A model generated the notes under the pieces. The model was given only the letters and a program-made list of their open reading frames with translations, had not been told where the DNA came from and did not search any database. From Bacteroidota bacterium (GTDB taxonomy: Bacteria > Bacteroidota > Bacteroidia > UKL13-3): a DNA stretch of 36,906 bases. The stretch spans positions 1 through 36,906 of the forward strand of contig JAIYAT010000029.1 of NCBI GenBank assembly GCA_027488905.1. The letters are read 5' to 3'. Within the stretch, counting starts at the first letter, position 1. Every line of letters begins with the position of its first letter. The translations under genes and the position numbers were made by a program. This document shows positions 13,706 through 35,659 of the stretch, one piece after another.

Positions 13706-14956
13706 TCACATAATTTCTACATTTTCCACAAACCACATATCTACTTCTCCTTTATTCTTGGCATTTATTTTACCTCGGTATTCAAACTCAAATTCTGCAC
13801 TTCCACTCCGCTCAGTGCCCGTTAAGAGTTCGTAAGTGGCTTGACTGATGTTTATTTTTCCTGCTTCGCTATTAGATTCCATGCGGTTTGCCATGTTTAC
13901 GGTATCACCCCAAATATCGTAGGCAAACTTTTTTACACCTACTATTCCTGCTACTACCTGACCAGAATGTATGCCTATTCTTACTTGAAATTTACCACTA
14001 TTTGTGAGCATGAATGCTTGAATTTCTAAAGCTGCTTTGGTTATGCGCTGTGCATGATCAGCTACTTCAATGGGTAAGCCACAAACTGCTAAATACGCAT
14101 CTCCAATGGTTTTTATTTTCTCTATGCCATGCTTTTCCATGATGGCATCAAAGGCGGTAAAGTTTTTATGGATTTCTTCCACTAATTCTCCTGGTGTTAA
14201 GGTTTCGCTAATGCCCGTAAAATTCACAAAATCTGTAAACATTACAGTTACATTGGTATATAACCTTGCGCGCGATTCACCATTTTGTTTTAATTCCTCT
14301 ATAACCTCCTCAGGTAAAATATTGGAAAGTAAATCCTCACTTCGTTTCTTCTCCATATCAAGCAAGGTGTTTTTGTCTGCTAAATTTTTTAAGGCTGTAT
14401 TGGTTGTGTTTTCAAAGACTAAGGCAATTAAAAAAATGAGCACCCCTAAGCCATTTAAATTAGCCGTATTAAATAAAGGCAAAAAAGAAACTTGTGCTTC
14501 ATCATTAAACTTAAAGCCAAAGATAGAAAGTAATCCTACCAAAGTAATTGCTAGGTAACTTAAAATGGTCCACACCCATCCACTTCGCTTATCTATTAGC
14601 ATCAAAGAAGTAATGGGTAAAACGGCTAACCACGGTAATATAGAGGAGATTAATCCGCCTGTATTAAACACCGTAATTAAAACACCAATCCCTCCAATGG
14701 AAATGTAACAATTAGCTAAAAATTTTAGTGATAACCAATCCTTTCTTAAGACAAATGGAAGCAAAACAAAACCCACTGCATTAAATGCCATAGCCCATTG
14801 TACTTTTGGCATTCCTACTAAACTAGATGATACAAAATAAAAAGTTGAAAACAAGCTTGTAATGAAACATATGTTTACAAACAACTTTGCTTTCCTAAAA
14901 TTTTGATCTTCATGTGAATAGTGTTCAGGAATAAATTGAAGAAGGAACTTTTTCAT
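13706..14956 (-). CDS. Class III adenylate cyclase with multi-pass membrane domain
   Basis: 416 residues. The N-terminal 185 residues hold about six hydrophobic segments (for example near 25-47, 54-70, 79-97, 103-120, 127-147, 168-182), a membrane sensor region of MASE-like layout. A short coiled linker (185-212) leads into a class III cyclase domain. Metal ligands are D242 (FTDFVNFTG) and D286 (KTIGDAYLA); K282 and the D of FAYDIWGDT are the adenylate-selecting residues; DTVNMANRM supplies the catalytic N and R. The catalytic domain is nearly the same as that of the cyclase at 1699-3147, even at the DNA level, while the sensor halves are unrelated. The 9-bp spacing from the upstream oxidoreductase gene argues for co-transcription. 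Confidence 0.9.
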   Translation of the reverse strand: MKKFLLQFIPEHYSHEDQNFRKAKLFVNICFITSLFSTFYFVSSSLVGMPKVQWAMAFNAVGFVLLPFVLRKDWLSLKFLANCYISIGGIGVLITVFNTGGLISSILPWLAVLPITSLMLIDKRSGWVWTILSYLAITLVGLLSIFGFKFNDEAQVSFLPLFNTANLNGLGVLIFLIALVFENTTNTALKNLADKNTLLDMEKKRSEDLLSNILPEEVIEELKQNGESRARLYTNVTVMFTDFVNFTGISETLTPGELVEEIHKNFTAFDAIMEKHGIEKIKTIGDAYLAVCGLPIEVADHAQRITKAALEIQAFMLTNSGKFQVRIGIHSGQVVAGIVGVKKFAYDIWGDTVNMANRMESNSEAGKINISQATYELLTGTERSGSAEFEFEYRGKINAKNKGEVDMWFVENVEIM

Positions 14957-18800: not shown

Positions 18801-19182
18801 ATTTTTATGTTTTAATAATGACACTGCAAGTATTGACATAAAAGGCTGAACAGTAAAGGCTAAATAGTTGGATATAACGCATATGCAAGCCATGTTCTTG
18901 TGCATAATGCAACTGCAAGGTATAAATGCTAGTCACACACCCTTTCATTTGCATATTTCACAAATAACACCACCCCTTCATTTGCATTAAACCCAAATGG
19001 AAAGCAATGATTTGCACCAAATGCGATTTTTATTTTGGGGAAAATGGGGGTTTAAAGGGTATGTTCGGGGAATTTGAACCTAAAATATGCCAATTCAAAA
19101 GGTTTAGGGTTGAACCAAGATGAAATGAAAGCATAAGTCTCTAACCGTTCCTAACTAATTTATCTAGGTTAATTTTAAAAGA
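18801..19182. other. Intergenic region with two TTCATTTGCAT direct repeats
   Basis: No gene is supported here. TTCATTTGCAT occurs at 18944-18954 and 18977-18987, each preceded by a C-rich stretch, 33 bp apart (about three helical turns). That is a plausible arrangement for a dimeric regulator upstream of 18063-18800. A T-rich, G-tract segment follows (19030-19060), then TTTAGGGTTGAACC at about 19101, a near copy of the motif at 17722. Confidence 0.4.
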
Positions 19183-19225
19183 TACCCATTTATGGGTATT
19201 TTTGGTAGGAGGGAATTGGGTGGTT
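19183..19225 (+). promoter_or_regulatory. 16-bp palindrome with promoter-like overlap and conserved tail
   Basis: TACCCATTTATGGGTA (19183-19198) is a perfect 7-2-7 inverted repeat of the geometry used by NarL/LuxR-type regulators. TATTTTTG (19197-19204) overlaps its right arm and matches the -7 consensus TAnnTTTG exactly, though no TTG was found at the usual -33 distance. GAATTGGGTGGTT follows at 19213-19225. The same palindrome and tail with the same spacing recur at 35617-35659. It lies 59 bp upstream of the nuclease gene at 19284. Confidence 0.5.
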
Positions 19226-19283: not shown

Positions 19284-20180
19284 ATGAGTTTAACATCAAT
19301 AATAAAAGACATAAATAATCAGGAGTTAAGGGATAAATTCAAAATTGATTTTCCGATACCTGAAATCAATTTGAATTTTGACTTACTTGCACCTCCTCTT
19401 ACCAATAATTATGGAATTATTGGGACTGCATTTGACTATTTAATGCGATTTTATTTGCAGTTCCATAATAATAGTATTATTAATCAAAAATCTGAATGGG
19501 TAGCTGATTCTGCTTATGGTTCCTTAATCAGTTTACTTGGACAGTCGACAAAAAAAGAAATAAAAACAGGATTCCGAAAGGACAAGATATTTAATACAAA
19601 AAACCTTCTTAATCTATTAATTGAACAATACAGTCAAGCGAAAATCAATTACGATAATTACATTTTGAATGGAATGATAACTGAAGAATTAGTTTCTAGT
19701 ACATTATTTCTGGCTAAATTGGATTTATATTATAGAAATGGAGTTATTGATAACTCATTTGATTACAATGACCCTGAAGACATTAAAGATATTACCTCAT
19801 TAATTTGCTTAGTAGATCATAAAAAATTTACGGCAAAAGAGAAATGTTATCTTAATCCAACTTTTGGAAAAGGGTCAATATTAGTGGGTGGTGCAGATGC
19901 CGACCTAATTATTGATAACACTCTTATTGATATTAAAGCTACCAAACATTTAAAAGTTGAAAGAGTGTATTTTAACCAAGTTTTAGGCTATTACATTTTA
20001 TCACTGATAGGAGGTGTTAATAATGATAAACTAAACAAGCCAATTGAAAATTTAGGGTTTTACTTCGCCAGACACGGTTTATTATGGACAATTCCTATTT
20101 CTGAGTTGGGTGATAATCACAAATTCGAGAATTTTAAAGATTGGTTTGTTTCTTATGTTTCTGAGAAAAAACTTACTTGA
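19284..20180 (+). CDS. RecB-like PD-(D/E)XK nuclease family protein
   Basis: 298 residues. The core motif is GGADADLIIDNTLIDIKATK: D205/D207 and then D216-I-K218, the PD-(D/E)XK metal and catalytic triad. It is followed by NQVLGYYIL, giving Q232-x3-Y236, the QxxxY motif of RecB/Cas4-type nucleases. An N-terminal GTAFDYLMRF (47-56) adds a conserved-looking helix that in this superfamily often supplies an acidic metal ligand. No helicase domain is fused. It is the only plus-strand gene in the defence island and converges on hsdR. Its own upstream region has a palindrome and a promoter-like box. A DNA-degrading role in defence is inferred from fold and place; the family name is not certain. Confidence 0.75.
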   Translation: MSLTSIIKDINNQELRDKFKIDFPIPEINLNFDLLAPPLTNNYGIIGTAFDYLMRFYLQFHNNSIINQKSEWVADSAYGSLISLLGQSTKKEIKTGFRKDKIFNTKNLLNLLIEQYSQAKINYDNYILNGMITEELVSSTLFLAKLDLYYRNGVIDNSFDYNDPEDIKDITSLICLVDHKKFTAKEKCYLNPTFGKGSILVGGADADLIIDNTLIDIKATKHLKVERVYFNQVLGYYILSLIGGVNNDKLNKPIENLGFYFARHGLLWTIPISELGDNHKFENFKDWFVSYVSEKKLT

Positions 20181-20356: not shown

Positions 20357-23300
20357 TTAAGGTCTCAACATTCTTTTAATAGTATCCTGCATCGCAATTT
20401 TAAATCCTTCATCTTGGGAAACTAACCTATAAAGGTCAAGTTCAATCTTTCGTTGTTTTCCCATTACGTCATCAAAGATTTTACTGAAAGCAATTTCTCT
20501 ATTTTGTATATCGGAATTGTCTGCATACTTTTCTTTGAAGTCGCTATGCTCTTTCATTTTCTGAGCTAGATTCACAAATTTTGCTCGTTGTTCATCGGGT
20601 GTGGCTTCCCATCCTTGAAACCAACGTTCATTAAAGCTTTTGATAATTAAATCTAGCTCATCTTTTTCGGATTCTCCACCATGTGCACCTCTTGGATTTG
20701 GATTCTGAGGATCAACTTCTGTTTCGTTGGCATCGAGGGCAATACTTGTATTCAGTTTCACTCTTTCTAGTCCATAGGTTGAAAGGTCAACCGAATTTAA
20801 TAAGCCATCTAAAGCATCTTTTTCATTATCTATGATGATTAATTTTGGAATTAAGAATTTCAAAAACCAAAACAACTTCTCCCAAGCAGCCACTTCATAA
20901 GGCATGATGGAAGCCATTTGCCCATATATTTTTACAAAGTGTTTTGCTTTAATTTTATAGTCTGCCTTTGCTTTGTCTTCTAATGCTAAAGTTAAATTAA
21001 ATCGTTCAGCAGCAATATCAATAATTGGACTTAATTCTTGGGCATTTACACCTTTGAAATATTTATCCACGAAATCTTCCACTTCGCTCCATTCATAAAC
21101 ACCAGCATCATTCAAATTGGATTTTAAGTCATGAAGCACATTAATGTCGGTAGCTTTGCTTAATGAGGTTGCAGTATAAAATGGGTCGAATGATTTTTTT
21201 ATGTCTTCAGTAGTGTTGTAAAAATCAAGAATGAATAAATCTTCGGTTTTCTTTCCGAGTTTGTCAGATGAACGATTTAATCTTGATAGGGCCTGAACCG
21301 CAATTACACCTTGTAGTTTTTTATCTACATACATAGCAGTTAATTTTGGTTGGTCATAACCTGTCAGATATTTATTTGCTACTACTAAAATACGGTATTC
21401 GTCCATATCAACGTAACGGGCAATTTTGTCGCTTATATAGCCTGAATCTAATGGTTTTGCTGTATCTAAATTTGAAGGAAAATCATTAAGGCTGTCTTCT
21501 GTATATTCAATACCTTTTATTTTTTTTGAACCCGAAAATGCAATGGCTATTCTAAATGGATTGCCTCTTTCTTGTAATAATGTTTTTAATGCGAAATAGT
21601 AATTGATGGCAGATTCTATGCTTTGTGATGCCACTATTGCTTTTGCTTTTCCTTTTAACTTTTTAGTATTTACCAATTTTGTTACAAAGTGTTCAAGCAT
21701 GATGTCAGCCTTGGTGGCAATGGTTTGTTTGTTTTGCTCAACGTAGGTCCTTAATTTCTTTTGTGCTTTTACGGTATCAAACAAAGGATTTTCTTGAATT
21801 GACTTTTCAATTTCGTAATAACTTTTATAAGTTGTGTAATTCGCAAGTACATCTAATATGAAACCTTCCTCAATGGCTTGTTTCATAGAATATAAATGGA
21901 AAGGTTTAAACGTCCCGTCTGCTTGTTGTACGCCAAATCGTTCCAGTGTATTGTTCTTAGGTGTAGCTGTAAACGCCAAATACGATGCGTTGCCCCGCAT
22001 TTTGCGTGAGCGCATGGCTTCCAATATTTTGTCTTGTGGGTCTTCCTCTTCTTCTGATTCTTCCAAAGAATTTCCCATGGCCTGATTCATTTTACCAGCG
22101 GCAGTTCCACTTTGACTACTATGAGCTTCGTCTATAATTACAGCGAATCTTTTATCGCTTAAATCTGCAATGCCATCCACAATAAATGGAAATTTTTGGA
22201 TGGTGGTAATGATTATTTTTTTACCTGTCTCCAAAGCTAGCTTTAAGTCAGAAGATGAAAGGGCAGGGGCAACAATATTTTTAACCTCTGAAAATTCCTT
22301 GATATTTTCACGAAGTTGTTTGTCTAACAATCTTCTATCAGTTACAACAATCACAGAATCAAACAATGGGTTAGAAATGCCCTTACTACCCGGAATGGTA
22401 TCATTTTCAGGATAGGTTTCTATTAGCTGATAGGCTGCCCATGTAATAGAATTAGACTTTCCAGAACCGGCTGAATGTTGGATTAGATAAGTTTGACCAA
22501 CACCTTTTTTACTCGCATCTGCGATGATTTTTCTTACTACATCTAGTTGGTGGTAGCGTGGAAAATACAATGTTTTTTTATTTAATGGGTCTGTGTCTTT
22601 GCCATCAAAGCGAACGAAATGTTGGATAATATTTGCAATGCTTTTTCTTTTAAAGATATCTTCCCATAAATAAGCTGTTTTATGTCCAAAGGGGTTGGGG
22701 GGATTTCCTTTGCCAAATAAGGGTTCGCGCTGACCTAAATTAAAAGGTAAAAAGTAAGTATCCTTCCCATCCAATTTGGTTGTCATGTACACTTCATCAG
22801 TATCAACGGCGAAATGAACAATACAACGCCCAAAGTTTAATAATGGCTGAGTAATATCTCTTTTGAATTTGTATTGATTTTGACCATGCACTTTTGCGTT
22901 CTGACCTGTCCAATGATTTTTTAATTCCATAGTGGCAAATGGCAAACCATTCACAAAAAGTACCATGTCTATTTCTTCGCCAATATTGGTTAAGGAATAA
23001 CGTAGTTGGCGGGTAGAGCTAAATTGATTGCTTTCAAAATTTGCCTTCACTGTTTCGCTGCTGCTTGCCAATGGCAATGGATACAACAAAGTGAAATGGG
23101 CATCATCTACATCTAAACCTTTACGAAACAAACGCAGGATGCCATATTTTTTAATCATTCGATCCAAACGTTCCAGAATCTTTAACTTCCAATCACTTTG
23201 TTTCTGCAGCTTCGCTAATTCATCCTTCTGAGTGCTTTGTAAAAAATCCCAAAAGTAAAATTCATCTATAGCATATTTGGCATTGAAGTTTTGAGGAATA

Positions 23301-23452
23301 CCCATATAATATCCTTTACCCGCTCGATAAGGCTCTACTCTATCGGCGGCTAATAATTCTTCACTTTTTGTTTCTAATTCTTCTCTACTAAAACCAGTTA
23401 GGCTTTTCTCTATGGCTGCTTCGAGAGCGGCTTCGTTAGTTTGTGATTGCAT
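20357..23452 (-). CDS. hsdR: Type I restriction enzyme, motor/nuclease subunit HsdR
   Basis: 1031 residues, the usual size. The N-terminal nuclease domain has D162 (EEIDMVLFVNG) and E176-L-K178 (ATMELKNHW), then QNQY, the PD-(D/E)XK site. The SF2 motor follows: Walker A SAGSGKS (327-333), DEAH box (441-444), FTATP (near 496), and the late motifs YLTGYDQPKL and VQALSRLNRS. The C-terminal helical region binds the methylase core. It is last in the minus-strand hsd operon, 17 bp after the PDDEXK_4-type gene. Cuts unmodified DNA after ATP-driven translocation when joined to HsdM2S. The frame continues for 27 codons after the TAA stop (see findings). Confidence 0.96.
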   Translation of the reverse strand: MQSQTNEAALEAAIEKSLTGFSREELETKSEELLAADRVEPYRAGKGYYMGIPQNFNAKYAIDEFYFWDFLQSTQKDELAKLQKQSDWKLKILERLDRMIKKYGILRLFRKGLDVDDAHFTLLYPLPLASSSETVKANFESNQFSSTRQLRYSLTNIGEEIDMVLFVNGLPFATMELKNHWTGQNAKVHGQNQYKFKRDITQPLLNFGRCIVHFAVDTDEVYMTTKLDGKDTYFLPFNLGQREPLFGKGNPPNPFGHKTAYLWEDIFKRKSIANIIQHFVRFDGKDTDPLNKKTLYFPRYHQLDVVRKIIADASKKGVGQTYLIQHSAGSGKSNSITWAAYQLIETYPENDTIPGSKGISNPLFDSVIVVTDRRLLDKQLRENIKEFSEVKNIVAPALSSSDLKLALETGKKIIITTIQKFPFIVDGIADLSDKRFAVIIDEAHSSQSGTAAGKMNQAMGNSLEESEEEEDPQDKILEAMRSRKMRGNASYLAFTATPKNNTLERFGVQQADGTFKPFHLYSMKQAIEEGFILDVLANYTTYKSYYEIEKSIQENPLFDTVKAQKKLRTYVEQNKQTIATKADIMLEHFVTKLVNTKKLKGKAKAIVASQSIESAINYYFALKTLLQERGNPFRIAIAFSGSKKIKGIEYTEDSLNDFPSNLDTAKPLDSGYISDKIARYVDMDEYRILVVANKYLTGYDQPKLTAMYVDKKLQGVIAVQALSRLNRSSDKLGKKTEDLFILDFYNTTEDIKKSFDPFYTATSLSKATDINVLHDLKSNLNDAGVYEWSEVEDFVDKYFKGVNAQELSPIIDIAAERFNLTLALEDKAKADYKIKAKHFVKIYGQMASIMPYEVAAWEKLFWFLKFLIPKLIIIDNEKDALDGLLNSVDLSTYGLERVKLNTSIALDANETEVDPQNPNPRGAHGGESEKDELDLIIKSFNERWFQGWEATPDEQRAKFVNLAQKMKEHSDFKEKYADNSDIQNREIAFSKIFDDVMGKQRKIELDLYRLVSQDEGFKIAMQDTIKRMLRP

Positions 23453-23469: not shown

Positions 23470-24564
23470 CTAGTTATGCTCCTTTTTGAATTCTAAATCT
23501 AATATATCAATTATTTGGATGAGTTGTCTTTCAATTTCAAGAGCTATATTTTGATCCGACTCAAAATACTCAAAAATAAGTTTCTCAATCCCGTTTTGAA
23601 GCAATACGTTACCATACTGCTGATGTAATGCACTATCAAACCAATATTGGGTTTGTAGTTTATAATCTTTTATTCCTATTTGGTAAAAAAAGGAAATGTC
23701 TCCTAAGATAATATTGTATTTTATAAGTTGAGACCCTTCATAGGTAAATCTTCCAGTTTCTGTATTAGGTTTATATCCCAATATTGAAGATGAAAGAATT
23801 TGTTTTGCCAATGCTTCCCTTATTTTTTGTCGATTAAAAAGCTTATCAATATTATTTAGCTTTATTACAAACTCTGAGCTGAACTTGTTATGATATTCAA
23901 GCACCTTATTTACCTTTTCTACATTATTTTGTAAAAAGGTTATTAATTCTAGGTTTTCATCCATATTAGATGCGTTTATATTATTTTCAATATTTTTTAA
24001 AAAATCTAAGAAAAAAATTAGATACTTACTATCTGCATAGTCAGTGTAGGATCCGATATTTTCTTTTATTTTCTTAATTAGATCTGTGTACACTAAATTT
24101 ATAAAACCATTTGAAGTTTCATTTTTGTGTTTTGAAAGTACAATTTTATAGGTTGGTAGTTTTTGGATTTTGGCAATAGCTTCAATTGTTGCCGCATAAT
24201 CCTCTAAATCATTATAAAGAGCAGCGCCAACTTTGTTTTCAATTCCCAAAATGAAATTTTCTGCCTTTATAACAATATCTATCCTATTTCCTTTATGAGT
24301 ATAATATTCTGTTTGTACCTTTATTCCTGTTAAACTTGTAAGTGCAATAGGGGTGTTTGTAGTTTCAAAAATTGATTTCAACAATAAATCAGACAAGTGA
24401 TGCTCTCTGTTTGGGTCAATGAAAAATGCAAGAATATTGCTCCAAACATTCTCCAAATGTGGAGCACGAGCTATTTCGAGGAAGGTGGCTCCGTTGCGTT
24501 CCTTAATCCGTAATTCGTTAAAATTACTAACAAGTTGTTCTATTGCTTTTAAGTCTTCTGTCAT
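23470..24564 (-). CDS. PDDEXK_4-type (PF14281-like) nuclease family protein
   Basis: 364 residues from the ATG at 24564. A start at 24594 would overlap the upstream gene by 23 bp and add a basic stretch outside the family pattern. The N-terminus shows the family signature ARAPHLENVWSNILAFFIDPNREH. The nuclease core follows: GNRIDIVIKA with D96, then GIENK with E109 and K111, then LEDYAA. The C-terminal half is helical plus a beta domain (LGDISFFYQIGI) of unknown role. Members are often found in defence loci. Located between the GIY-YIG gene and hsdR within a type I operon, it is likely an accessory nuclease or nuclease-fold regulator of the restriction complex. Activity is inferred only from the motif. 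Confidence 0.8.
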   Translation of the reverse strand: MTEDLKAIEQLVSNFNELRIKERNGATFLEIARAPHLENVWSNILAFFIDPNREHHLSDLLLKSIFETTNTPIALTSLTGIKVQTEYYTHKGNRIDIVIKAENFILGIENKVGAALYNDLEDYAATIEAIAKIQKLPTYKIVLSKHKNETSNGFINLVYTDLIKKIKENIGSYTDYADSKYLIFFLDFLKNIENNINASNMDENLELITFLQNNVEKVNKVLEYHNKFSSEFVIKLNNIDKLFNRQKIREALAKQILSSSILGYKPNTETGRFTYEGSQLIKYNIILGDISFFYQIGIKDYKLQTQYWFDSALHQQYGNVLLQNGIEKLIFEYFESDQNIALEIERQLIQIIDILDLEFKKEHN

Positions 24565-24571
24565 AAACCGT

Positions 24572-25186
24572 TTAAAAGTAAGCTTTATTTTCAATTACAT
24601 TTTTCTTTGCTTCATCTTTGCACTCTTGACGCAATTGAGTTAATAACTCAGCACAAACATTGAATCCCTTAGTTCTTTTATCTAGGTCCAAGGTTGGTTT
24701 TAGATGTATGATTAACTGTTCCTCAATTTCTCGTAGAGGCTTATTTTCTTTTGAAGTATCATATTCCCAATACCCAATTAGTAAGTTATCTTTCATCCAA
24801 ATAGAAAGTTGTTTCTCAGCCTTGGAATCAAATTTATAATTGTCAATATTGGGGCTATTTAGTGTTCCATTTCTGCTAAATGCGACTGCTTTAAGTTCAT
24901 TTTTTAATACAGCACCAATTGAGCGCCTCAAAGTTGATTGCCCAGTTCTTCCATCCTTAAAGTGTGTATTTAGGTCACGTTGCCTTAAACTATCTTCTGC
25001 TTTACCCACATAAATAATTTGATTGACGCTTCCAAAACTTTTAAGATTAGAATTTGGGGCCAATACAAAAGCATAAAGTCCTGGCTTATTTGAATAGGTC
25101 TCATGCTTATTTACAGTTTTTGTTGTTGCATTTATTGCTTTGATTATTGTTTCTATTGATGTCATACAATTAAAATTATTACTCAT
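24572..25186 (-). CDS. GIY-YIG nuclease family protein
   Basis: 204 residues. GLY (36-38) and YVG (59-61) are the two strands of the GIY-YIG core. Arg in LRQRDLNTHF (68-72) and Glu in REIEEQL (about 156) fit the catalytic Arg and metal-binding Glu. The rest is a short helical tail. The start ATG overlaps the previous stop codon as TAATG, indicating translational coupling; an internal ATG (residue 8) is a less likely start. Stand-alone GIY-YIG proteins cut or nick DNA. Here it is inserted in the hsd operon between a DUF6998-like gene and a PD-(D/E)XK gene. Confidence 0.8.
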   Translation of the reverse strand: MSNNFNCMTSIETIIKAINATTKTVNKHETYSNKPGLYAFVLAPNSNLKSFGSVNQIIYVGKAEDSLRQRDLNTHFKDGRTGQSTLRRSIGAVLKNELKAVAFSRNGTLNSPNIDNYKFDSKAEKQLSIWMKDNLLIGYWEYDTSKENKPLREIEEQLIIHLKPTLDLDKRTKGFNVCAELLTQLRQECKDEAKKNVIENKAYF

Positions 25187-25668
25187 TATTCAAAATCATC
25201 TTTTATCAAAATGCGCTCATTATCATTAATCCGGGAAGAAATTTCCTCCAATTTTTTTATTGGGAATAACAAAAGCTGCTCTCCAATTCCCTTTCTGTGT
25301 TGATAATTTTGGTAAATGTATTTTCCTGGGCCATTATAAATTACTTTAAAACTTCCATCTTCAAAAAGTTTAATTCCAATATAATAATCAGGCTCATGGT
25401 TATAAGTCAAGCTTTCTTTAAAAGTGGCTTTAATTTGAATCTTTAGGTTTGGTTCATAGGTTGTTTCTGCATCATAATACTTTACTACTTTTTCGTATAG
25501 TTTAATTTGAAATAGTTCTTGAGCTACTATTTCTCCAATATCTCCAACCAATCTACCATCAAGTGTAAAACCACTTTTCTTTATAGGGAAATGCTCCTTA
25601 AGCTTTAAAACAGAATTTTGTAAACTTTTAATTTCTGTTTTTAGTTTATCTAACATGTTTTCTTTCAT
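25186..25668 (-). CDS. DUF6998-like PD-(D/E)XK-fold protein
   Basis: 160 residues from the ATG at 25668, 2 bp after the hsdS stop; a TTG at 25677 is possible but less likely. An N-terminal coiled helix (1-27) is followed by a compact domain: VGDIGEIVAQELF with E46, then D66 (YYDAETT), and QIKAT with Q78-I-K80. This gives a PD-(D/E/Q)XK arrangement like the DUF6998 group and restriction-endonuclease-like folds. Gln at the acidic position may mean altered or absent cleavage. It overlaps the GIY-YIG gene by one base, so the two are coupled. Probable nuclease or DNA-end-binding accessory of the type I system. Confidence 0.65.
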   Translation of the reverse strand: MKENMLDKLKTEIKSLQNSVLKLKEHFPIKKSGFTLDGRLVGDIGEIVAQELFQIKLYEKVVKYYDAETTYEPNLKIQIKATFKESLTYNHEPDYYIGIKLFEDGSFKVIYNGPGKYIYQNYQHRKGIGEQLLLFPIKKLEEISSRINDNERILIKDDFE

Positions 25669-25670
25669 AC

Positions 25671-26987
25671 CTAACAAACTTTTATTTTACCCGTTACCGC
25701 ACTGTTAATCAATGTAGCTTTGTATTCTTTTAGCTTTTCTATTTCTTGCTCTTTCAGGGAAATTGCGGTATCTACTTTCAAATTTAAATTCTCTACATAA
25801 CTTCTTACTTCATCCATTTCATTAATTGGAGGTATTGGAACTTCAATTGAATTCAAATTTCCGATAGTAAGTTGATTAATTGTTGAAGTCAAAAACATAC
25901 CCGACAGGGCTTTGAATATTGATGAATTTAAAATACAAAAAATGTAAGGATTGATATCAGATCTAAAAACTGTTGTAAATGCCCCAAATGAATGACCTGT
26001 ATCAACCTTAGTAGCTAAAGCACATTTGCCTATTAAGTCACGGCTCCCGTTTCTAGAGCATATTAAAATATCATTTTCTCTGATTAATAATTTTTGAGGA
26101 ATTCTTGATTTTACATAAGCATTTTCTTTTTCTCCGTACTTAAACTTTCCATCGAATAAATTAGAAGATCTTAATACTAAAGTACCTTCCTCCATTCCAC
26201 ACAAATCATTTGGATTATAGGTAAGCCCAATGATTGAATTCCCTAAATGCTTCAACCGTTTAACTTCCCAACCCTCTGGTATCTCACCAATCCATTCCAC
26301 ACCGCTATCCTTCATTTTAACATTGGGGTTTAGCCCACGGGTAACGGCTTTGTGTATGAGTATTTGCCTGCGTTCTTTGAGCAGTTCTATTTGTTTTTGT
26401 TTAATGTCAATGGCTTGGTCTATCAAGGTTGTTTTGCGATTTAAAAAAATAACAATTAATGTTTGTTCTTTATAATCTGGGAAAGGAATTAGTATATCGC
26501 CAAACTTGTCAAAATACAATCTTAAACGCATGTCCATTATTCCACGAGAATGCCTTCTTAATTCCGAAATACAAGCTTCGTTTCGAAATAAATAATGAAA
26601 AAAATTACTTTCAATTTTTACTTTGGCTCTGAGAATATCATATGCAGGACTTGTCACTCCATCATAATTGGAAACACCAATAGCTCCCATCCAAGCTAAA
26701 AGTTTATTAACAACAATATCTCCTTTTTTGACAAACCAATAGCCGTCAGTAGTTGAAGCTTTATTCCCTCTTTCTTCTAATTCTCGTCTCGGTTTAACTC
26801 CAATATCAGTATAAACTGAAAGTAATTCAAAATCGTTGTTTTTAGGTGCTGGTTCAATAACTAACCGGAAAACATTTTTTACTTTTTTCAATTCCCATTG
26901 TTTAGGAATCATTCCCAACCAATTTTCGCCCGAATCTTTACATTCCGAATATTTCTCCAATTTCATTTTATTCTTTACTTTTTCCAT
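25671..26987 (-). CDS. hsdS: Type I restriction specificity subunit HsdS
   Basis: 438 residues, two half-repeats. Each begins with the pattern KDSG-x-x-W-hydrophobic-G-x-IP-x-x-W-E (KDSGENWLGMIPKQWE near 19 and KDSGVEWIGEIPEGWE near 227), continues through a target recognition domain, and ends in a conserved coiled spacer (AIDIKQKQIELLKERRQILIHKAVT, and AISLKEQEIEKLKEYKATLINSAVT). The two recognition domains differ, so a bipartite asymmetric DNA target is expected; the sequence read cannot be predicted here. The start ATG overlaps the hsdM stop as TAATG. A duplicated KDSG/IP motif of this kind could allow domain exchange by recombination. Confidence 0.95.
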   Translation of the reverse strand: MEKVKNKMKLEKYSECKDSGENWLGMIPKQWELKKVKNVFRLVIEPAPKNNDFELLSVYTDIGVKPRRELEERGNKASTTDGYWFVKKGDIVVNKLLAWMGAIGVSNYDGVTSPAYDILRAKVKIESNFFHYLFRNEACISELRRHSRGIMDMRLRLYFDKFGDILIPFPDYKEQTLIVIFLNRKTTLIDQAIDIKQKQIELLKERRQILIHKAVTRGLNPNVKMKDSGVEWIGEIPEGWEVKRLKHLGNSIIGLTYNPNDLCGMEEGTLVLRSSNLFDGKFKYGEKENAYVKSRIPQKLLIRENDILICSRNGSRDLIGKCALATKVDTGHSFGAFTTVFRSDINPYIFCILNSSIFKALSGMFLTSTINQLTIGNLNSIEVPIPPINEMDEVRSYVENLNLKVDTAISLKEQEIEKLKEYKATLINSAVTGKIKVC

Positions 26988-29353
26988 TAAGCCAAATTTA
27001 AAATTTCACGAATTAAACCATCGCTCAATTCTTCTAGTTTCAAAATATCGTTGCTTACTTCTTCAATGGCACGTAAAGGTTTATGGCGGTAGAAATATTT
27101 ATTGAAACTTATCTCGTAACCAATTTTGGTGGCATCTAAGTTTATCCAGGCTTCGGCTACATGGGGTTTTACTTCTCGCAAAAAGTAGGTGTAAACATTT
27201 TCTTTGAGTGGCACATTTTCGGTATCACGCAAATCGCTTTCGGTTTCGTATTCAAGATATTCGCCTTTTTTGTTAGTAGCAAAATAACCGTAGTCAGCCA
27301 GTTCGGTTTCTTTACAATCCAAATGCTCCAGTAAATGCTCCAATTTATCGCCTGTTATTTTGGTAGTACCCTTTACTACTTTTTCGGCAGTAGCATCATA
27401 CCAACTTACTGCATTTAAAATGGCATTTTTTTCAGAAGCAGAAATTTTTGATTTTTTTGCTTTTAATACTACATCCACTTTTTCTTTGAATACATTAAAG
27501 TCGTTGTATTCATCTGTGCCAATAGCTTCCATCAATTCGGAAGCAGTGTTGAGCAACTCCAATTGTTTAGTCCAAAGGGCTTCGCTTACCAATGTTTTGC
27601 TTTGCTTCGCATTGAGGTTCAACTCATTTTTTTCGCACCATTCCGTAATTTCTTTTTCGTGTTTAGCAATGTCCGTGTAAACCTTTTCTCCAAAAGTTTC
27701 ATACGCCCAAGCCATTGGTTCACGTAAAGATTTATCAAAACGTAATTCAGCTATACGTTCAGATGTAAATTGAGCTTTCAATCGTTTTGGTCGTTCAATG
27801 GTAACTTTGTAATAACCAAAATCAGTATTGTCAAAAAGTTTTGAAGCGATTCCTTGTTCCTCTGTAGTTTCGGTATTAATAACTCGGTTAACAGCTTGCG
27901 TATTTTCATACACCGAAACTATTTCACGAATATGTTCAGGTGCAAATTCACAGTTTTTGTTGCCTAAGTTCTTACGCAGTTTACGGAACAATAAACCTGC
28001 ATCTATTAATTGCACTTTGCCTTTGCGGTTTGCTGCTTTGTTGTTGCTCAATATCCAGATATAGGTAGTAATGCCCGTATTGTAAAACAAATTGTTGGGC
28101 ATTTGCACAATGGCTTCTAGCCAATCGTTTTCAATAATATACCTGCGAATATTGCTTTCGCCACCTCCAGCATCACCAGTAAACAAACTACTACCATTGT
28201 GCACCGAAGCAATGCGAGAACCCAAAGGACTTTGGGTTAATGGTTTCATTTTATTCACCATTTCCATCAGGAACAGCAATTGGCCATCAGATGAACGAGG
28301 CGTTGCATCCGCATCTTCCTCAATACCCCAATAGTTTTTCAGTTTAATTTGAAAACGAGGGTCAATAATATCTTTGCCATCTTTAATAAACTTTTGCTCA
28401 CTTGCCCACGATTTACCATAAGGCGGATTGGAAAGCATAAAGTCAAAAGTTGTTCCTGCAAACTCATCGGTAGAAAGTGTTGAGCCAACCTTGATATTTT
28501 CTGGGTTATTACCCTTAATCATCATATCTGATTTGCAAATAGCATAGGTTTCATCATTGATTTCTTTACCATACAAATACACATCGCCTTTTGCTTTTAT
28601 TTCGCCTTCTTCATCCTTCACAAAATTTTGAGATTCGGTGAGCATACCACCACTGCCACATGCAGGGTCGTAAATGGTCATTACAGGAGGAAGTTTACTT
28701 TTAACTGGCTCAAAAATAATGTGGGTCATTAACTCAATAACTTCACGTGGTGTAAAGTGCTCTCCAGCTTCTTCATTATTATCCTCGTTAAATTTTCTAA
28801 TCAATTCCTCAAACACATAGCCCATTCCCAAATTTGTCAAAGGTGGTAGCTTACGCCCATCAGGGTCGTTTTTTTCAAATGGTGTAAGATTGATATAGGG
28901 CGAAGTGAATTTCTCTAGTACATTCAACAAAACATCTTTCGATGCCATGTGTCTAACCTGACTTTTGAGTTTAAACTTTTCAATAATCTCTTTTACGTTT
29001 CCGCTGAAGCCGTTCAAGTAATCTTCAAAATTTGCCTGAAGTATTTGTTGGTTATTGGTAGCAGTGTCGTGTAAGCGTTGTAAGGTCCACTCGCTAGTAT
29101 TGTAAAACACATAACCACTGGCTTGTCTTAAACCGTTTTCGTCCAACAAGGTAAACTTGGCCTCCTCGCGTTGAAAAACCAATTCTTCCAATACGGCTGC
29201 CTTTGTAGGTTCAAGCAAAGCATCCAACCTGCGAAGCACCACCATAGGTAAAATTACATCACGGTATTTTCCTCTCACATAAACATCACGCAAACAATCG
29301 TCTGCTATTGACCAAATGAAGGATATTGATTTATTGTGTACTGCTTGATTCAT
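26987..29353 (-). CDS. hsdM: Type I restriction-modification methylase subunit HsdM
   Basis: 788 residues, longer than the usual 500 or so. The N-terminal helical HsdM domain (1-160) is followed by the Rossmann methylase. Motif I for S-adenosylmethionine is DPACGSGGML (229-238), the FTPREV segment sits at 200-205, and the catalytic motif IV is NPPY (309-312), for adenine N6 methylation. After about 500 there is an additional 280-residue C-terminal extension, mostly helical, with a part similar to LREPMAWAYETFGEK...HVAEAWIN that long HsdM proteins carry. It lies 12 bp downstream of the receiver-domain gene. With HsdS it forms the modification enzyme and, with HsdR, the restriction complex. Confidence 0.95.
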   Translation of the reverse strand: MNQAVHNKSISFIWSIADDCLRDVYVRGKYRDVILPMVVLRRLDALLEPTKAAVLEELVFQREEAKFTLLDENGLRQASGYVFYNTSEWTLQRLHDTATNNQQILQANFEDYLNGFSGNVKEIIEKFKLKSQVRHMASKDVLLNVLEKFTSPYINLTPFEKNDPDGRKLPPLTNLGMGYVFEELIRKFNEDNNEEAGEHFTPREVIELMTHIIFEPVKSKLPPVMTIYDPACGSGGMLTESQNFVKDEEGEIKAKGDVYLYGKEINDETYAICKSDMMIKGNNPENIKVGSTLSTDEFAGTTFDFMLSNPPYGKSWASEQKFIKDGKDIIDPRFQIKLKNYWGIEEDADATPRSSDGQLLFLMEMVNKMKPLTQSPLGSRIASVHNGSSLFTGDAGGGESNIRRYIIENDWLEAIVQMPNNLFYNTGITTYIWILSNNKAANRKGKVQLIDAGLLFRKLRKNLGNKNCEFAPEHIREIVSVYENTQAVNRVINTETTEEQGIASKLFDNTDFGYYKVTIERPKRLKAQFTSERIAELRFDKSLREPMAWAYETFGEKVYTDIAKHEKEITEWCEKNELNLNAKQSKTLVSEALWTKQLELLNTASELMEAIGTDEYNDFNVFKEKVDVVLKAKKSKISASEKNAILNAVSWYDATAEKVVKGTTKITGDKLEHLLEHLDCKETELADYGYFATNKKGEYLEYETESDLRDTENVPLKENVYTYFLREVKPHVAEAWINLDATKIGYEISFNKYFYRHKPLRAIEEVSNDILKLEELSDGLIREILNLA

Positions 29354-29365
29354 AATATTATCTAA

Positions 29366-30523
29366 TTAAATTTTCTCTGTTTGCACTGCACTTTTGGGAT
29401 ATTGATGCATTGTTTTTTCGTTGGTATTATTAGCAACTTTTAAAATTCTTATAGTGTCACCTATTTTAAATCCGTTTTTATTAAATTGTGTGTAATTAAT
29501 TATTATTTCGCCACAGTGATAATTTTTACTTCTATCTTGTTCGATAGTTCCTGTAATTGCAATTGAAGAACTACTTGTGTCTACAAGCATATATTTAGTC
29601 TTATTGAATACTATATCGGTATTGGCATCTATAAAGTCTTTAAACCAAAGCAATACATCCAATAATTGGTAGGTTACACTCATTAAAAGGTAAGGAGTAT
29701 TTACTTGAGATATAAAGCTATCTAATTCGGAGCGGTGTGAAGCAGGTTGACAAACTGCCAATATACAGCGAACATGATCGGAAACAACTTTTGGAAAAAC
29801 AGGAGTATCTAATTTATATCCTTTCTCAACAATACCTGAAAGAAACTTGCTTGATTCATTTAATGCAACTGATGGTTTTACAAACACATCGGGCATTAAT
29901 CCGTATTTATTACTTGCCATAAACAAATCATCCATTATTTTTCTTAATGGATTGAAATAAAGATTAGGATCTGTAAAGGCTTTTTCGGAATTTTCTTTTT
30001 TTAATATTGAGAGTAAATCGTGGTAGGCATGTTCACCAATATACTTTTCTGTGCAGACTTCAAAAACTCGATGGTACTTATGGCGAATTTGCGTATCTGG
30101 CTGTTGGTCGGCTTCCTTTTTAATATCCATCCATAACTGTTCAATATCTGCATCAAAGTTCTTATTATAAACTTTGTTTCCTTTGTATTCAGCCGCAATA
30201 GGGTTTGATGAGTTTAGGAAATCTGGCTGACCAGAAAAAATAAACCAGGGGATTTTCTTGATACCTTCTCTTTTGTCCAGAAATCTTGCCACGTTAAATA
30301 ATGCAGCATCATTCACAGCATCACCGGTTGCGCTGGCATTTTTATAGAACTTACCATCCACTATTACGGCATCATAAGAAATTAGGTTTGATTCCAGTTC
30401 TGCAATACCCTCTTCTGCATTGGTATAACCTATTAGTTTTATTCCTTTCTGATTCGCATCGTCCTTGAGAGATTCAAAAGATTCATGCTCATCGTCAAAC
30501 CAAAGTACCTTATATTCATTCAT
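29366..30523 (-). CDS. Receiver-domain (CheY-like) protein with unknown C-terminal domain
   Basis: 385 residues from the ATG at 30523; an ATG at 30532 adds three residues. Residues 1-135 form a receiver domain with the full site: D10-D11-E12 (LWFDDE), phospho-acceptor D56 (AVIVDGKF), switch S97 (WFIFSG) and K121 (VYNKNF). The insert around 57-70 is longer than in CheY. Residues from about 140 are not a recognised DNA-binding output domain. They are helical with SDHVRCILAVCQPASHR and a C-terminal beta part (GTIEQDRSKNYHCGEIIINY). The gene overlaps the stop of the methylase-kinase gene (ATGAATGA), so the two are translationally coupled, and it precedes hsdM by 12 bp. It is the natural phosphorylation partner of the kinase domain next door. 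What the C-terminal domain does is unknown. Confidence 0.8.
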   Translation of the reverse strand: MNEYKVLWFDDEHESFESLKDDANQKGIKLIGYTNAEEGIAELESNLISYDAVIVDGKFYKNASATGDAVNDAALFNVARFLDKREGIKKIPWFIFSGQPDFLNSSNPIAAEYKGNKVYNKNFDADIEQLWMDIKKEADQQPDTQIRHKYHRVFEVCTEKYIGEHAYHDLLSILKKENSEKAFTDPNLYFNPLRKIMDDLFMASNKYGLMPDVFVKPSVALNESSKFLSGIVEKGYKLDTPVFPKVVSDHVRCILAVCQPASHRSELDSFISQVNTPYLLMSVTYQLLDVLLWFKDFIDANTDIVFNKTKYMLVDTSSSSIAITGTIEQDRSKNYHCGEIIINYTQFNKNGFKIGDTIRILKVANNTNEKTMHQYPKSAVQTEKI

Positions 30524-33152
30524 ACTTTTCATAGTTTAATACTGGCAAATTGATTTCAAAACTAGTTGACCAAATTCCTCCGATTCCTTGTGGACCTTGT
30601 TCATCATCAATCTCAAGGGTGCCATTATGTTTATGAATAATCTGATTAATTAACCAACCACCGTAGCCATTACCAGCTTTAGGTCCAGCCTTACTACCTT
30701 TTCGAACGAACATTTCTTGTGTAAAATCTTCAGGAAGTCTTTTACCATTATTAGAAATGCTGAAGATAAACCTTGGTTCATCCATATTGTTTCCAAAGCA
30801 ATCTATACTAATTAAGTTGTTTTCTCTAAAGTCAGATTCAAAGGCATGTTCAATGGCATTCTCGATAATATTATTAAACATATCCTTTAATAGATTTTTG
30901 TTACCATTAATATATACTCTAACCTCATTACCTTCTGCATCTACAAAGTCATTCTTGGCAGGCGTAAAGGTAATTTCAAAATTACGATTTGGGTTGCTAA
31001 TGATTTCATTTACCAATTCTGAAATGAATGGAATAATCTCAATGGATTCCATGATAGCGCTTTGTATATATGAATCACCTAAGGTGTTTCTTTGCGTGTC
31101 TAAAGAGACTTTTTCAATATCTCGTTCCATTGAGTGCAATAAATTTGCGAGTGTCAATTGAGATCTATTGTTCTCTTTCATATCAAGTATTTCAGGATGA
31201 GTTAGTTTTATCTGACTTTCAAAAATGTGTTTCAATTTTTTAAAAGAACCTCTTAGATTGGCCAGGTTACCTGCAATGGAATGACGTAAGAAGTTATTTT
31301 GTTCAGTAACGTCATTAAAAACTATCTGGTTCTCTTCCTTTACCTTGCTTTCACTTAATCTTATATCAGTGTATACTTCATTAATTCCGGCAATTTTTGC
31401 CCTTTGTTCATTCATGGAAGGTAATTTTATAAGAACCTTCATCAAATCATGCTTTCGTATAAAAGGAATTACAGATCCACTTATACGAATAGAATTAAGT
31501 TGTTCAATTACATAATCAGCATGCAGTTCATTGATTAAATAAGCGATTTCAACTCGAGATTCATCTACCTTGAAAGATACAACATCTTGATTTCTATAGA
31601 TTTTTTCACCTTTGAAATTGAAAAACGTAGGTTTTAAGGTTTGCCAGCGAAGAGTTAGCAACAAACAAGATTCGGTTACCTGAAATGCGACTGGTCTTTT
31701 AAGTTCTGATTCCTCAAGTCTGGAGGATTCAAGTATGTAATCAACTTTATCGTTCTTTAAATCTCGTATCTGAACAAATTTACCTCTTGTATCTATGTTA
31801 TCCTTTTTTACTTCAATTAACTTGATAATATCACCAAGCTTTACCAGCTTTTCATTTTCCAAAAAATCAATTGGTTTCTGGAAATACTTAGGAACATGGA
31901 TATCATAATTTGATTCCTTTAATTCCTTTAATTCTACAGTTCGTTCAATATCCTCTTTCTTTAGTTTTTTATAAGAAGAATGATATTCAGCAGCTGGCTC
32001 AGATACAATGTTAGGGTCTGAATCAACAAAAATCTCCTTTTCATGTTGATGGACCAGGGCAGATAACTTTAGGTCATTTAAAACTTTTCTTTTCGAACCA
32101 TCAGATTCAACAAAGGAATCGGCTTTAATAAAGCGTACCAAGCCGGGCCTTTCTTTTTTTTTATTGAGGAAAAGCACAATGATTGGAATTCCTGTATGAG
32201 GAAGAATACCTCCGGGTAATGAAATAATAGTATCAATTAAATCCTGATCTACTAAAGATTTTCGCAAATTATGCTCTTGATACATTTGGCTATTCAAGAA
32301 GCTTGTTGGCAGCAGCGTTACTAGTTTTCCGGATTGATTTAGTGATTGCAGGCCTTTTGATATAATAAACTGCTCAACGGTTTTAAACTGGGAGTTAGGT
32401 ATTCCTGATAGATTTCCTATCCTCATTCTAAAAGGAGGATTAGATACAATGAAGTCGAACTTTTCAGCCTCTTTTGGCCAATTCACCAATGAATCATCAC
32501 AAACATAATTTACACTGTCCTTTTTTCCATAAGCCAATAATCTTAAGGCGCCAATAACCCAAGTTTTTGGATGAATCTCCTGCCCAAAATATACCTGCTG
32601 TGAATCCAAAGAAATGCCAAAAGAAGCCAATCCGGCAAAGGGATTAAATATGGTTGCATCCTTTTTCAGATTTGGCAAAGCAAGCATCAATCTGGTTAAT
32701 TCAATGGGTTGAATAAATTCTCCAAATGGCCTTTTATACGCTTTTAAGTATTGATATAATATTTTATCAAAGACAATGGCAAAATTTTGCGTTAAGATTT
32801 CTTTATCAATTACATTTAACCCAAACAGTTTAAATGAAATCTGCTGCAGGAGGCTATTTTCAAGTTTAAAAATTTTATCCTCTAAAACGGAGAAAATTTT
32901 TGGGTAAGTAAGTGGAATACTATCCAGCTTACTATTATCCATTATTTTTTTGCAAAAAGCATCAAAAGTTTCTCTGTCTTTAAGATCATTTTGTTTTAGT
33001 AATCCATCTTTTTGCAGTGATAGTAATAACATACCTACAGATAAAAGATCTTCAGTAGAACTAATCTCTTCAGAACTTCTAAAAACATCTAAATAACTGT
33101 AAATGTTAAATACTAAAAAATCTATCTGATTGTGATAATTAACCTCTCTCAT
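30516..33152 (-). CDS. DNA adenine methyltransferase fused to a specificity-type domain and a histidine kinase
   Basis: 878 residues with three parts. (1) An N6-adenine methylase: helical N-terminus, motif I IFNPFAGLASFG (168-179), acidic YFGQE (188-192), catalytic NPPF (238-241). (2) A single type I S-like target recognition half (about 432-600), ending with the typical SGSVIPFIRKHDLMKVLIKLPSMNEQRAKI pattern (557-587). (3) A histidine-kinase module: a possible phospho-His H624 in FLRHSIAGNLANLRG, N box FNNIIENAIEHAF (759-771), a weak G1 box (SNNGKRLP, 800-807), and G2 GNGYGGWLINQIIHKHNG (827-844). No nuclease domain. The layout recalls a type IIG methylase-specificity chain in which a kinase has replaced the nuclease. 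Its gene overlaps the receiver gene downstream and follows the WYL regulator by 58 bp. The domain calls are firm; kinase activity is inferred, because G1 is degenerate. Confidence 0.88.
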   Translation of the reverse strand: MREVNYHNQIDFLVFNIYSYLDVFRSSEEISSTEDLLSVGMLLLSLQKDGLLKQNDLKDRETFDAFCKKIMDNSKLDSIPLTYPKIFSVLEDKIFKLENSLLQQISFKLFGLNVIDKEILTQNFAIVFDKILYQYLKAYKRPFGEFIQPIELTRLMLALPNLKKDATIFNPFAGLASFGISLDSQQVYFGQEIHPKTWVIGALRLLAYGKKDSVNYVCDDSLVNWPKEAEKFDFIVSNPPFRMRIGNLSGIPNSQFKTVEQFIISKGLQSLNQSGKLVTLLPTSFLNSQMYQEHNLRKSLVDQDLIDTIISLPGGILPHTGIPIIVLFLNKKKERPGLVRFIKADSFVESDGSKRKVLNDLKLSALVHQHEKEIFVDSDPNIVSEPAAEYHSSYKKLKKEDIERTVELKELKESNYDIHVPKYFQKPIDFLENEKLVKLGDIIKLIEVKKDNIDTRGKFVQIRDLKNDKVDYILESSRLEESELKRPVAFQVTESCLLLTLRWQTLKPTFFNFKGEKIYRNQDVVSFKVDESRVEIAYLINELHADYVIEQLNSIRISGSVIPFIRKHDLMKVLIKLPSMNEQRAKIAGINEVYTDIRLSESKVKEENQIVFNDVTEQNNFLRHSIAGNLANLRGSFKKLKHIFESQIKLTHPEILDMKENNRSQLTLANLLHSMERDIEKVSLDTQRNTLGDSYIQSAIMESIEIIPFISELVNEIISNPNRNFEITFTPAKNDFVDAEGNEVRVYINGNKNLLKDMFNNIIENAIEHAFESDFRENNLISIDCFGNNMDEPRFIFSISNNGKRLPEDFTQEMFVRKGSKAGPKAGNGYGGWLINQIIHKHNGTLEIDDEQGPQGIGGIWSTSFEINLPVLNYEKYE

Positions 33153-35507: not shown

Positions 35508-35616
35508 GATGTTTATTGTTTACGAATTGCCTTGTACATAGCTGCAAATTATTCAATACCCGAAACCTTTTATCTATTGTTAAATCAAACATAACCAATC
35601 CCCCTCATTTAAAAAA

Positions 35617-35659
35617 TACCCATAAGTGGGTATATTTTGCAAAAGAGAATTGGGTGGTT
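35617..35659. promoter_or_regulatory. Second copy of the TACCC palindrome with conserved tail
   Basis: TACCCATAAGTGGGTA (35617-35632, 15 or so of 16 positions as in 19183-19198), then GAATTGGGTGGTT at 35647-35659 at the same 30-bp offset. On the minus strand it reads TACCCACTTATGGGTATTTTTT followed by GAGGGGGATTGG, also like the first copy, so the element is nearly symmetric. It lies 110 bp upstream of 34914-35507 and 58 bp past the stop of 35717-36481. Confidence 0.5.

Follow-up and report, generated by a model that had tools for sequence, protein, structure and literature searches.

The gene described here lies on a 36,906-bp stretch of DNA (the window), which is the whole of one contig (C15; JAIYAT010000029.1) of a 3.55-Mb Bacteroidota genome (GCA_027488905.1). 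Its open reading frame starts with ATG, occupies exactly positions 19284 to 20180 of the plus strand, and encodes a 298-amino-acid protein (hereafter, the nuclease) predicted from its homologs and a structure model to be a stand-alone PD-(D/E)XK nuclease resembling RecB, Cas4, and MGME1. It was taken as a real gene and not a chance ORF because full-length relatives occur across phyla and because it is under purifying selection (dN/dS, 0.23 to 0.27 against the copy in a congeneric genome, G399). Thirty-five ORFs of at least 80 amino acids were listed in the window, of which 20 were scanned with Pfam and 10 with PADLOC.

Convergent with the nuclease, across 176 bp, is hsdR (20357 to 23452, minus strand), encoding the motor/nuclease subunit of a type I restriction system (PF18766, PF22679, PF04313; PADLOC REase_I; phylogenetic tree). 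It is the last gene of a minus-strand operon which begins, behind a WYL-domain protein and probable regulator (33211 to 34239), with an 878-amino-acid fusion of an N6-methylase, a type I specificity domain, and HATPase_c (30516 to 33152; Pfam) and a 388-amino-acid protein without a Pfam match over the cutoff (29366 to 30532), and continues with hsdM (methyltransferase subunit; 26987 to 29353; Pfam, PADLOC), hsdS (specificity subunit; 25671 to 26987; Pfam, PADLOC), and genes for a DUF6998 protein (25186 to 25677; Pfam), a GIY_YIG_2 protein (24572 to 25186; Pfam), and a PDDEXK_4 protein (23470 to 24594; Pfam, and PADLOC PDC-S26). The fusion protein is unusual and, with the 388-amino-acid protein, may be a system of its own. 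To the left of the nuclease is a 280-amino-acid ORF without a family match, and other genes on that side recur beside the island in G399. An nSTAND1 NTPase with WD40 repeats (3192 to 6170, minus strand) shares its stretch with adenylate/guanylate-cyclase genes (1699 to 3147 and 13706 to 14956).

A preliminary description had placed the nuclease convergent with hsdR, facing a type I operon, with neither helicase nor cas neighbors. The orientation is as described, and no cas family was found among the window ORFs scanned with Pfam or PADLOC, bar a weak Cmr6 line inside HsdR (E value, 5e-4). The lack of a helicase holds for a dedicated partner only, since HsdR itself carries an SF2 motor domain. 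No Cas4 match was found in the window's genome, which also encodes an AddB/RecB-type PDDEXK_1 protein.

Upstream of the gene is a hairpin (19178 to 19203; 11-pair stem, UUUA loop; fold z, −2.9) that corresponds to the palindrome (19182 to 19199) previously read as the gene's own promoter-like element. The stem (ATACCC-N6-GGGTAT, followed by T5) has at least seven copies in the genome, among them 19182 to 19203 (plus) and 35612 to 35633 (minus), against none for the reversed control; these dispersed copies refute a gene-specific element, and the reading as a promoter or operator was rejected. A stricter hairpin pattern was matched in 1 of 19 genomes of the genus, the window's own not being matched. 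By eye, some copies share a trailing GGGATTGGGTxxGTTTG-like stretch, and related intergenic repeats occur in G399. A similar hairpin precedes the nuclease of G399 (sequence compared by eye); one of its stem pairs reads G-U (by eye, not folded), which favors a hairpin RNA or repeat over a DNA operator. A terminator scan did not report the hairpin (0 found), and a sigma-70-type scan of the region, which is weak here since Bacteroidota promoters differ, found 7 candidates against 8.3 expected from shuffled sequence.

No Pfam or NCBIfam family covers the nuclease (one Pfam line with an E value of 0.16 was far below the cutoff), a sequence search of solved structures gave two chance matches only, and the PHROGs match was to a family without an assigned function (phrog_34041; E value, 1e-20). 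The best curated profile was PADLOC PDC-S61 (E value, 6.6e-10; 37 bits; residues 45 to 277 against positions 45 to 237 of 253), which was matched by 12 of 14 members of an alignment of relatives (A1; best E value, 1.8e-16). PADLOC's PDC sets were reportedly found as genes embedded in known systems. In whole-genome searches, PDC-S61 gave 31 to 54 bits in 5 of 60 genomes of relatives and 28 to 49 bits in 7 of 15 genomes holding a member of the nuclease family; PADLOC models carry no stated cutoff. Such weak scores suggest that the nuclease may be a remote member of PDC-S61 or a sister family. PDC-S61 appears in print as a table row (PMC11514479), and a search of the literature (titles and the starts of abstracts) gave nothing on the nuclease family. 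A second PADLOC profile, RTasPDDEXK, matched residues 155 to 275 (E value, 7.4e-7) and 13 of the 14 A1 members.

The catalytic residues named in the preliminary description (D205, D207, D216, K218, Q232, and Y236) were numbered correctly and are conserved in relatives from Bacteroidota to a metagenome-assembled genome (MAG) labeled Lokiarchaeota. Within A1, whose 14 rows (from plasmid, phage, and genome relatives) were not gathered by motif, D205, K218, and Q232 are present in all, and 90% or more of the rows have D207 and Y236. A larger alignment (A3, 46 rows) keeps D205, D207, K218, Q232, and Y236 in every row, with D (41 rows) or E (5 rows) at position 216, as well as G47, D51, Y52, and R55 throughout; the loss of catalytic residues that would have spoken against the earlier reading was thus not seen. 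By a loose pattern, the D...(D/E)-x-K core was found in 103 of 105 loci, and Q-x3-Y as well in 101; the four misses are two loci cut by contig ends (L034 and L045) and two short or interrupted ORFs (L092 and L106). Since loci L017 to L106 were gathered with patterns covering G203 to D211, including G-A-D-(A/G)-D (for viral contigs, also the stretch from G47), conservation there is partly a product of how these loci were chosen. Likewise, A3 start codons were placed at the MSL motif, which makes M1-S2-L3 partly a matter of choice; several deposited annotations begin there too.

The catalytic D205-A-D207...D216-x-K218 motif (19896 to 19937, plus strand) lies on a beta hairpin (model strands 208 to 210 and 213 to 218) and Q232-x3-Y236 (19977 to 19991) in the next helix (227 to 243), as in RecB-like nucleases; the motif-I His of those enzymes is absent. 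The motif I helix (G47-TAFDYLM-R55; 19422 to 19448) instead reads G47-x3-D51, with Asp in 46/46 A3 rows versus the invariant G40/H44 of 14 PDDEXK_1 domains with which A3 was compared; the equation of Asp51 with this His comes from spacing and helix rather than from any significant alignment. With hhalign, probabilities were 7% against Cas4, 0.4% against PDDEXK_1, and 0.05% against an unrelated control alignment; the alignment with Cas4 puts D205, D216-x-K218, and Q232 in register with its D, E-x-K, and Q. With this 7% and no Pfam match, the nuclease does not join the Cas4 profile (PF01930). A search for the Fe-S cluster set found no Cys in any column of A1 or A3 that is invariant or close to it, while a comparison alignment of Cas4 proteins keeps C11, C149, C152, and C158. 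Some Bacteroidota copies have a zinc-ribbon-like C-terminal stretch with four Cys, below the Pfam cutoff where tested (L049).

An AlphaFold model built on A3 (pLDDT, 95.9; pTM, 0.92) comprises one compact nuclease fold without a sensor domain. Its top match in VIA-align was MGME1 (Z, 9.6; 148 aligned residues; root mean square deviation, 3.9), followed by AdnAB (8.8), AddAB, ACE1, and RecBCD (8.7 each), and Dna2 (8.7 to 8.8), and with Cas4 at 7.2. The 24 best rows were all PD-(D/E)XK nucleases of the exonuclease kind (Z, 4.9 to 9.6), and the first unrelated protein came at Z 4.3. No type II restriction enzyme stood above Z 5 among the best 50 rows, which says nothing on membership. Foldseek alone gave nothing below an E value of 0.01 (best, Dna2 at 0.012), and the best matches in a viral structure library were giant-virus proteins named helicase (E value, 1.3e-6). 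Motif order and fold thus bear out the RecB/Cas4-like label given earlier; sequence profiles, which join the nuclease to neither Cas4 nor PDDEXK_1, do not, and because of this the model and alignments support kinship at the superfamily level.

The distribution of the nuclease is sporadic. It was found in 2 of 395 genomes of the phylum (its own included), by profile in 2 of 296 (its own and a partial match in G053), in 3 of 19 genomes of the genus (its own included), and in 4 of 60 relatives, one copy being interrupted. That copy (G415:C3:156626-157509) is split between reading frames into two overlapping pieces, one of which contains a stop, and adjoins a PDC-S02 gene. Matches were also found in 46 of 72,556 plasmid records (25 covering at least 80%; many are near-identical and Acinetobacter-type, and those from Streptomyces mostly cover only a third), 1 of 50,697 phage records, 10 loci on viral contigs, and at least 80 genome loci (a sample). 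The genome loci span Bacteroidota, Cyanobacteria, Planctomycetes, Acidobacteria, Bacillota, Actinobacteria, and Halobacteria, with MAG loci labeled Lokiarchaeota, Thaumarchaeota, and others, labels to be taken with caution (one contig carries two names, as L023 and L024). The nuclease is an accessory gene moving between lineages. The 105 loci compared below hold near-duplicates (L023/L024, L058/L059, L069/L097, the SPbeta set, and window/G399).

Homologs of hsdR were found within 8.5 kb of the nuclease in 8 of the 105 loci: the window, G399, G344, Halobacterium (L041), a Crocinitomix MAG (L046), a Bacillales MAG (L062), Nocardioides (L077), and a Lachnospiraceae MAG (L091; fragment). In six of the eight, hsdR is the immediate neighbor and points its 3' end at the nuclease; the two genes are convergent in the window, G399, and Nocardioides and lie on the same strand in G344 (6 bp apart), L062, and L091. 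Flanks exceed 6 kb on both sides in 46 loci (five with hsdR), and many loci are short. The background rate, from 221 HSDR_N matches in 148 genomes (0.43 per Mb; mean size, 3.50 Mb over the 125 genomes listed), predicts hsdR in 0.7 to 0.9% of 17- to 20-kb stretches; the observed rate was about nine to ten times higher, and 0 of 40 control stretches, all from four genomes of the window's class, held hsdR. The probability of at least 8 of 105 is 1e-6 to 4e-6 and that of at least 7 of 88 is 4e-6 to 1.1e-5 (17- and 20-kb stretches), values that ignore relatedness and apply a one-phylum background to loci of many phyla.

PADLOC reported 331 families among 122 immediate neighbors versus 26 among 117 control genes, a contrast that gives a direction and not a rate, because systems with many models inflate family counts. 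The neighbor set (A2) comprised 122 of 164 position-1 neighbors from 89 loci, with the window and 15 duplicate or SPbeta-type loci left out and 42 neighbors dropped by hand (mostly short ones and most of L084 to L105, but also Cas9 of L082 and UmuC of L015); the control set (A4), from the same four genomes as the control stretches, comprised 117 of 120 genes, three long ones being dropped. The best 25 of the 331 neighbor families included type I R and M subunits, Cas3, DruA, SoFic, and PDC-S02, -S05, and -S11; among the best 25 of the 26 control families, 18 were GajB models with one member each. Models of mad2 were matched by 3/117 control genes versus 2/122 neighbors.

Individual copies adjoin Cas3 of a type I-B locus, Cas9 (L082), a type IIG-like methylase accompanied by an SNF2-type helicase (G397), and an OLD-type ATPase/TOPRIM gene, which lies 3 bp upstream of the nuclease copy on plasmid pDrdII. 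In the Bacillales MAG, a 1,038-amino-acid protein directly after hsdM-S-R (L062:7839-10955) fuses the nuclease domain to an SNF2 helicase (PF00176 and PF00271); this fusion and the zinc-ribbon-like stretch would point to DNA as the substrate. Many other neighbors are metabolic or without a family (e.g., His_biosynth and KARI_N, two proteins each). A defence-island location applies to part of the loci only, and no partner genes were found to recur in the 105 loci other than hsd genes and the backbone common to the SPbeta set. In only 8 of these loci is hsdR near, too few for type I restriction to be the general partner. The defence setting proposed in the preliminary description nonetheless stood up to the search for homologs and islands that it had called for: defence genes are commoner among neighbors than among controls, hsdR exceeds both background and control stretches, relatives adjoin restriction-modification (RM), Cas3, Cas9, OLD, SNF2-plus-methylase, and PADLOC-candidate genes, and a mainly metabolic or conserved chromosomal context, which would have told against it, does not apply. 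The reading as a defence-associated nuclease is supported.

The congeneric genome G399 carries the same island (identities: WYL, 89%; fusion methylase, 97%; 388-amino-acid protein, 98%; HsdM, 87 to 94%; HsdS, 36%; DUF6998, 98%; GIY-YIG, 95%; HsdR, 95%; nuclease, 89%), with DNA homology on the nuclease side beginning at 19172, immediately ahead of the hairpin. Between GIY-YIG and hsdR is a slot whose content has been exchanged, holding PDC-S26 in the window and NsnA/NsnB/NsnC-like genes in G399 (L107, 3020 to 6295). Thus, while neighbors were exchanged, hsdR and the nuclease stayed together, the latter under purifying selection. The G397 copy (62%) is kept without hsdR nearby.

A different setting was found in phage BUCT082 and related prophages and plasmids, where two boxes, AGAACAAACGTTCT and AGAACAAAAGTTCG or a near variant, lie between the nuclease and yolD-uvrX, which it faces. 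These boxes were reported as LexA bound for yolC/yolD in SPbeta (PMC8270828), and yolC was placed opposite yolB (PMC8880864). SPBc2 and phi3T have a 336-bp yolC at that place and SPR a 138-bp ORF, while in L012, L013, L016, L098 to L101, and L103 the place is taken by the nuclease. That the nuclease is YolC itself was rejected: yolC of SPBc2 has 336 bp, and the BUCT082 protein (tblastn) matched BUCT082 alone in 50,697 phage records, SPBc2 included. The Bacillus-type box (GAAC-N4-GTTC) lies upstream in 9 of 105 loci (eight of the SPbeta set and L009) and within no gene start (0/105); five loci have less than 250 bp upstream. Y-family polymerases are near the nuclease in 14 of 105 loci, nine of them of the SPbeta set, and on an Acinetobacter plasmid it stands beside umuDC. 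We infer SOS-linked expression for the SPbeta-like copies. For Bacteroidota, the SOS motifs CTAA-N5-TTAG and GGA-N5-TCC have been described (PMC8565304); the latter lies upstream in 7 of 105 loci and in the gene start in 4, the former in none. The 250 bp upstream of the window nuclease hold neither of these motifs nor the Bacillus-type box, and SOS control of the window copy was rejected.

Type I enzymes break DNA and leave linear fragments, which they do not destroy; housekeeping RecBCD/AddAB degrades such fragments, and many phages inhibit RecBCD/AddAB. The nuclease is most likely an Mg- or Mn-dependent DNase, as predicted from fold and motifs, and as a PD-(D/E)XK enzyme of the RecB/Dna2/MGME1/Cas4 fold it would act on DNA ends or single-stranded DNA (ssDNA) of invading elements. 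Being without a helicase of its own, it would serve as an accessory to whichever machine of its island exposes DNA ends. In the window this would be HsdRMS, an enzyme that translocates, breaks unmodified DNA far from its site, and leaves linear fragments for degradation. Beyond the gene, its motifs, predicted fold, selection, sporadic distribution, and defence-gene neighbors, we infer the nuclease activity, the substrate (ends or ssDNA), the target (invading DNA), and the help to HsdR, and give this accessory reading somewhat better than an even chance. A further end-degrading enzyme may be redundant here, given the AddB/RecB-type PDDEXK_1 protein already encoded in the genome.

The want of a constant partner would equally suit a self-sufficient defence gene that senses infection, degrades phage or host DNA (as a single-gene or abortive system), and is parked by hsdR since defence genes cluster. 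Copies are often separated from their neighbors by a gap or lie on the opposite strand, some plasmid and prophage copies have no RM genes in the flanking sequence inspected, and the weak similarity to PDC-S61 agrees with this; however, the single compact fold of the model offers no sensor domain, and the G344 copy 6 bp behind hsdR and the pDrdII copy 3 bp behind the OLD-type gene are placed as expected of an accessory. We consider such autonomy unlikely. The nuclease may form the separate small module suggested in the preliminary description or be a generic accessory nuclease, the want of a fixed partner fitting both.

Plasmids and prophages could also be the prime home of the nuclease, its work being repair, recombination, or anti-defence on damaged or incoming DNA under SOS control. 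The SPbeta-like copies in the yolC place, behind two LexA boxes and facing yolD-uvrX, suit DNA repair or prophage biology no less than defence, and the umuDC neighbor on the Acinetobacter plasmid is in keeping with this; but 96 of 105 loci, the window included, have no Bacillus-type box, the published Bacteroidota motifs are absent before the window gene, and nearby Y-family polymerases are largely those of the SPbeta set, which makes this a rather improbable account of the family. Physical cooperation with one type I restriction subtype, as the dedicated partner of one HsdR clade, was weighed on a tree of nuclease-adjacent HsdRs and 20 background HsdRs, six of the latter chosen for resembling the clade. 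A fully supported branch groups five of the six full-length HsdRs that adjoin a nuclease, the hsdR 3' end is the immediate neighbor in 6/8 loci, and synteny is kept between two species. Against this, L041 lies elsewhere on the tree, 7 of the 20 background HsdRs (the six chosen for resemblance bearing on this count) are within the clade and their genomes gave no nuclease match, and the nuclease label requires at least three changes, which is mild clustering (25 of 500 shuffles were as low), with the window and G399 counting as one event. The association with the clade is suggestive only, and a dedicated HsdR partner is the most improbable of these accounts.

Returning to the accessory reading, the family is widespread yet undescribed (bacteria, archaea, plasmids, and prophages) and often stands beside antivirus genes, which makes it a promising candidate accessory nuclease in defence. 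A wider proposal, which we hold as doubtful, is that this cross-domain family of helicase-free RecB-like nucleases without a name, whose members begin with a conserved MSL and have Asp where motif I would carry His, would be a general DNA end-processor common to type I RM, Cas3/Cas9 loci, OLD, and SNF2-methylase systems, and in prophages an SOS-controlled inducible cargo. A small mobile nuclease recurring at the hsdR 3' end, without a Pfam or NCBIfam name, would be a candidate dedicated backup to RecBCD/AddAB, and the SPbeta-like copies may offer a tractable SOS-linked model in Bacillus subtilis.

Among known systems, the best structural match, the mitochondrial exonuclease MGME1, is also small and helicase free; at 18% identity and being eukaryotic, it resembles the nuclease in fold only. 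PDC-S61 is the best curated profile match, with its approximately 28 to 54 bits in whole-genome searches, and RTasPDDEXK, the DRT-associated nuclease, matches by profile, but no reverse transcriptase was found among the 20 window ORFs scanned with Pfam. RecB, AddB, AddA, and AdnAB (PDDEXK_1) have in common with the nuclease the fold and the order G-x3-(H/D), D, (D/E)-x-K, Q-x3-Y; unlike them, the window copy has no attached helicase, Fe-S Cys set, or significant profile match, and has Asp for the motif-I His. Cas4, solo-Cas4, and ACE1 (the Argonaute-associated Cas4 family) are alike in fold, with D, (D/E)-x-K, and Q in register by hhalign, whereas the nuclease lacks their four-Cys cluster, has about 300 amino acids compared with mostly 170 to 240 for Cas4, and is not encoded by a cas gene here. 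For Cas4-like proteins beside RM and WYL genes, there is precedent (PMC5704561).
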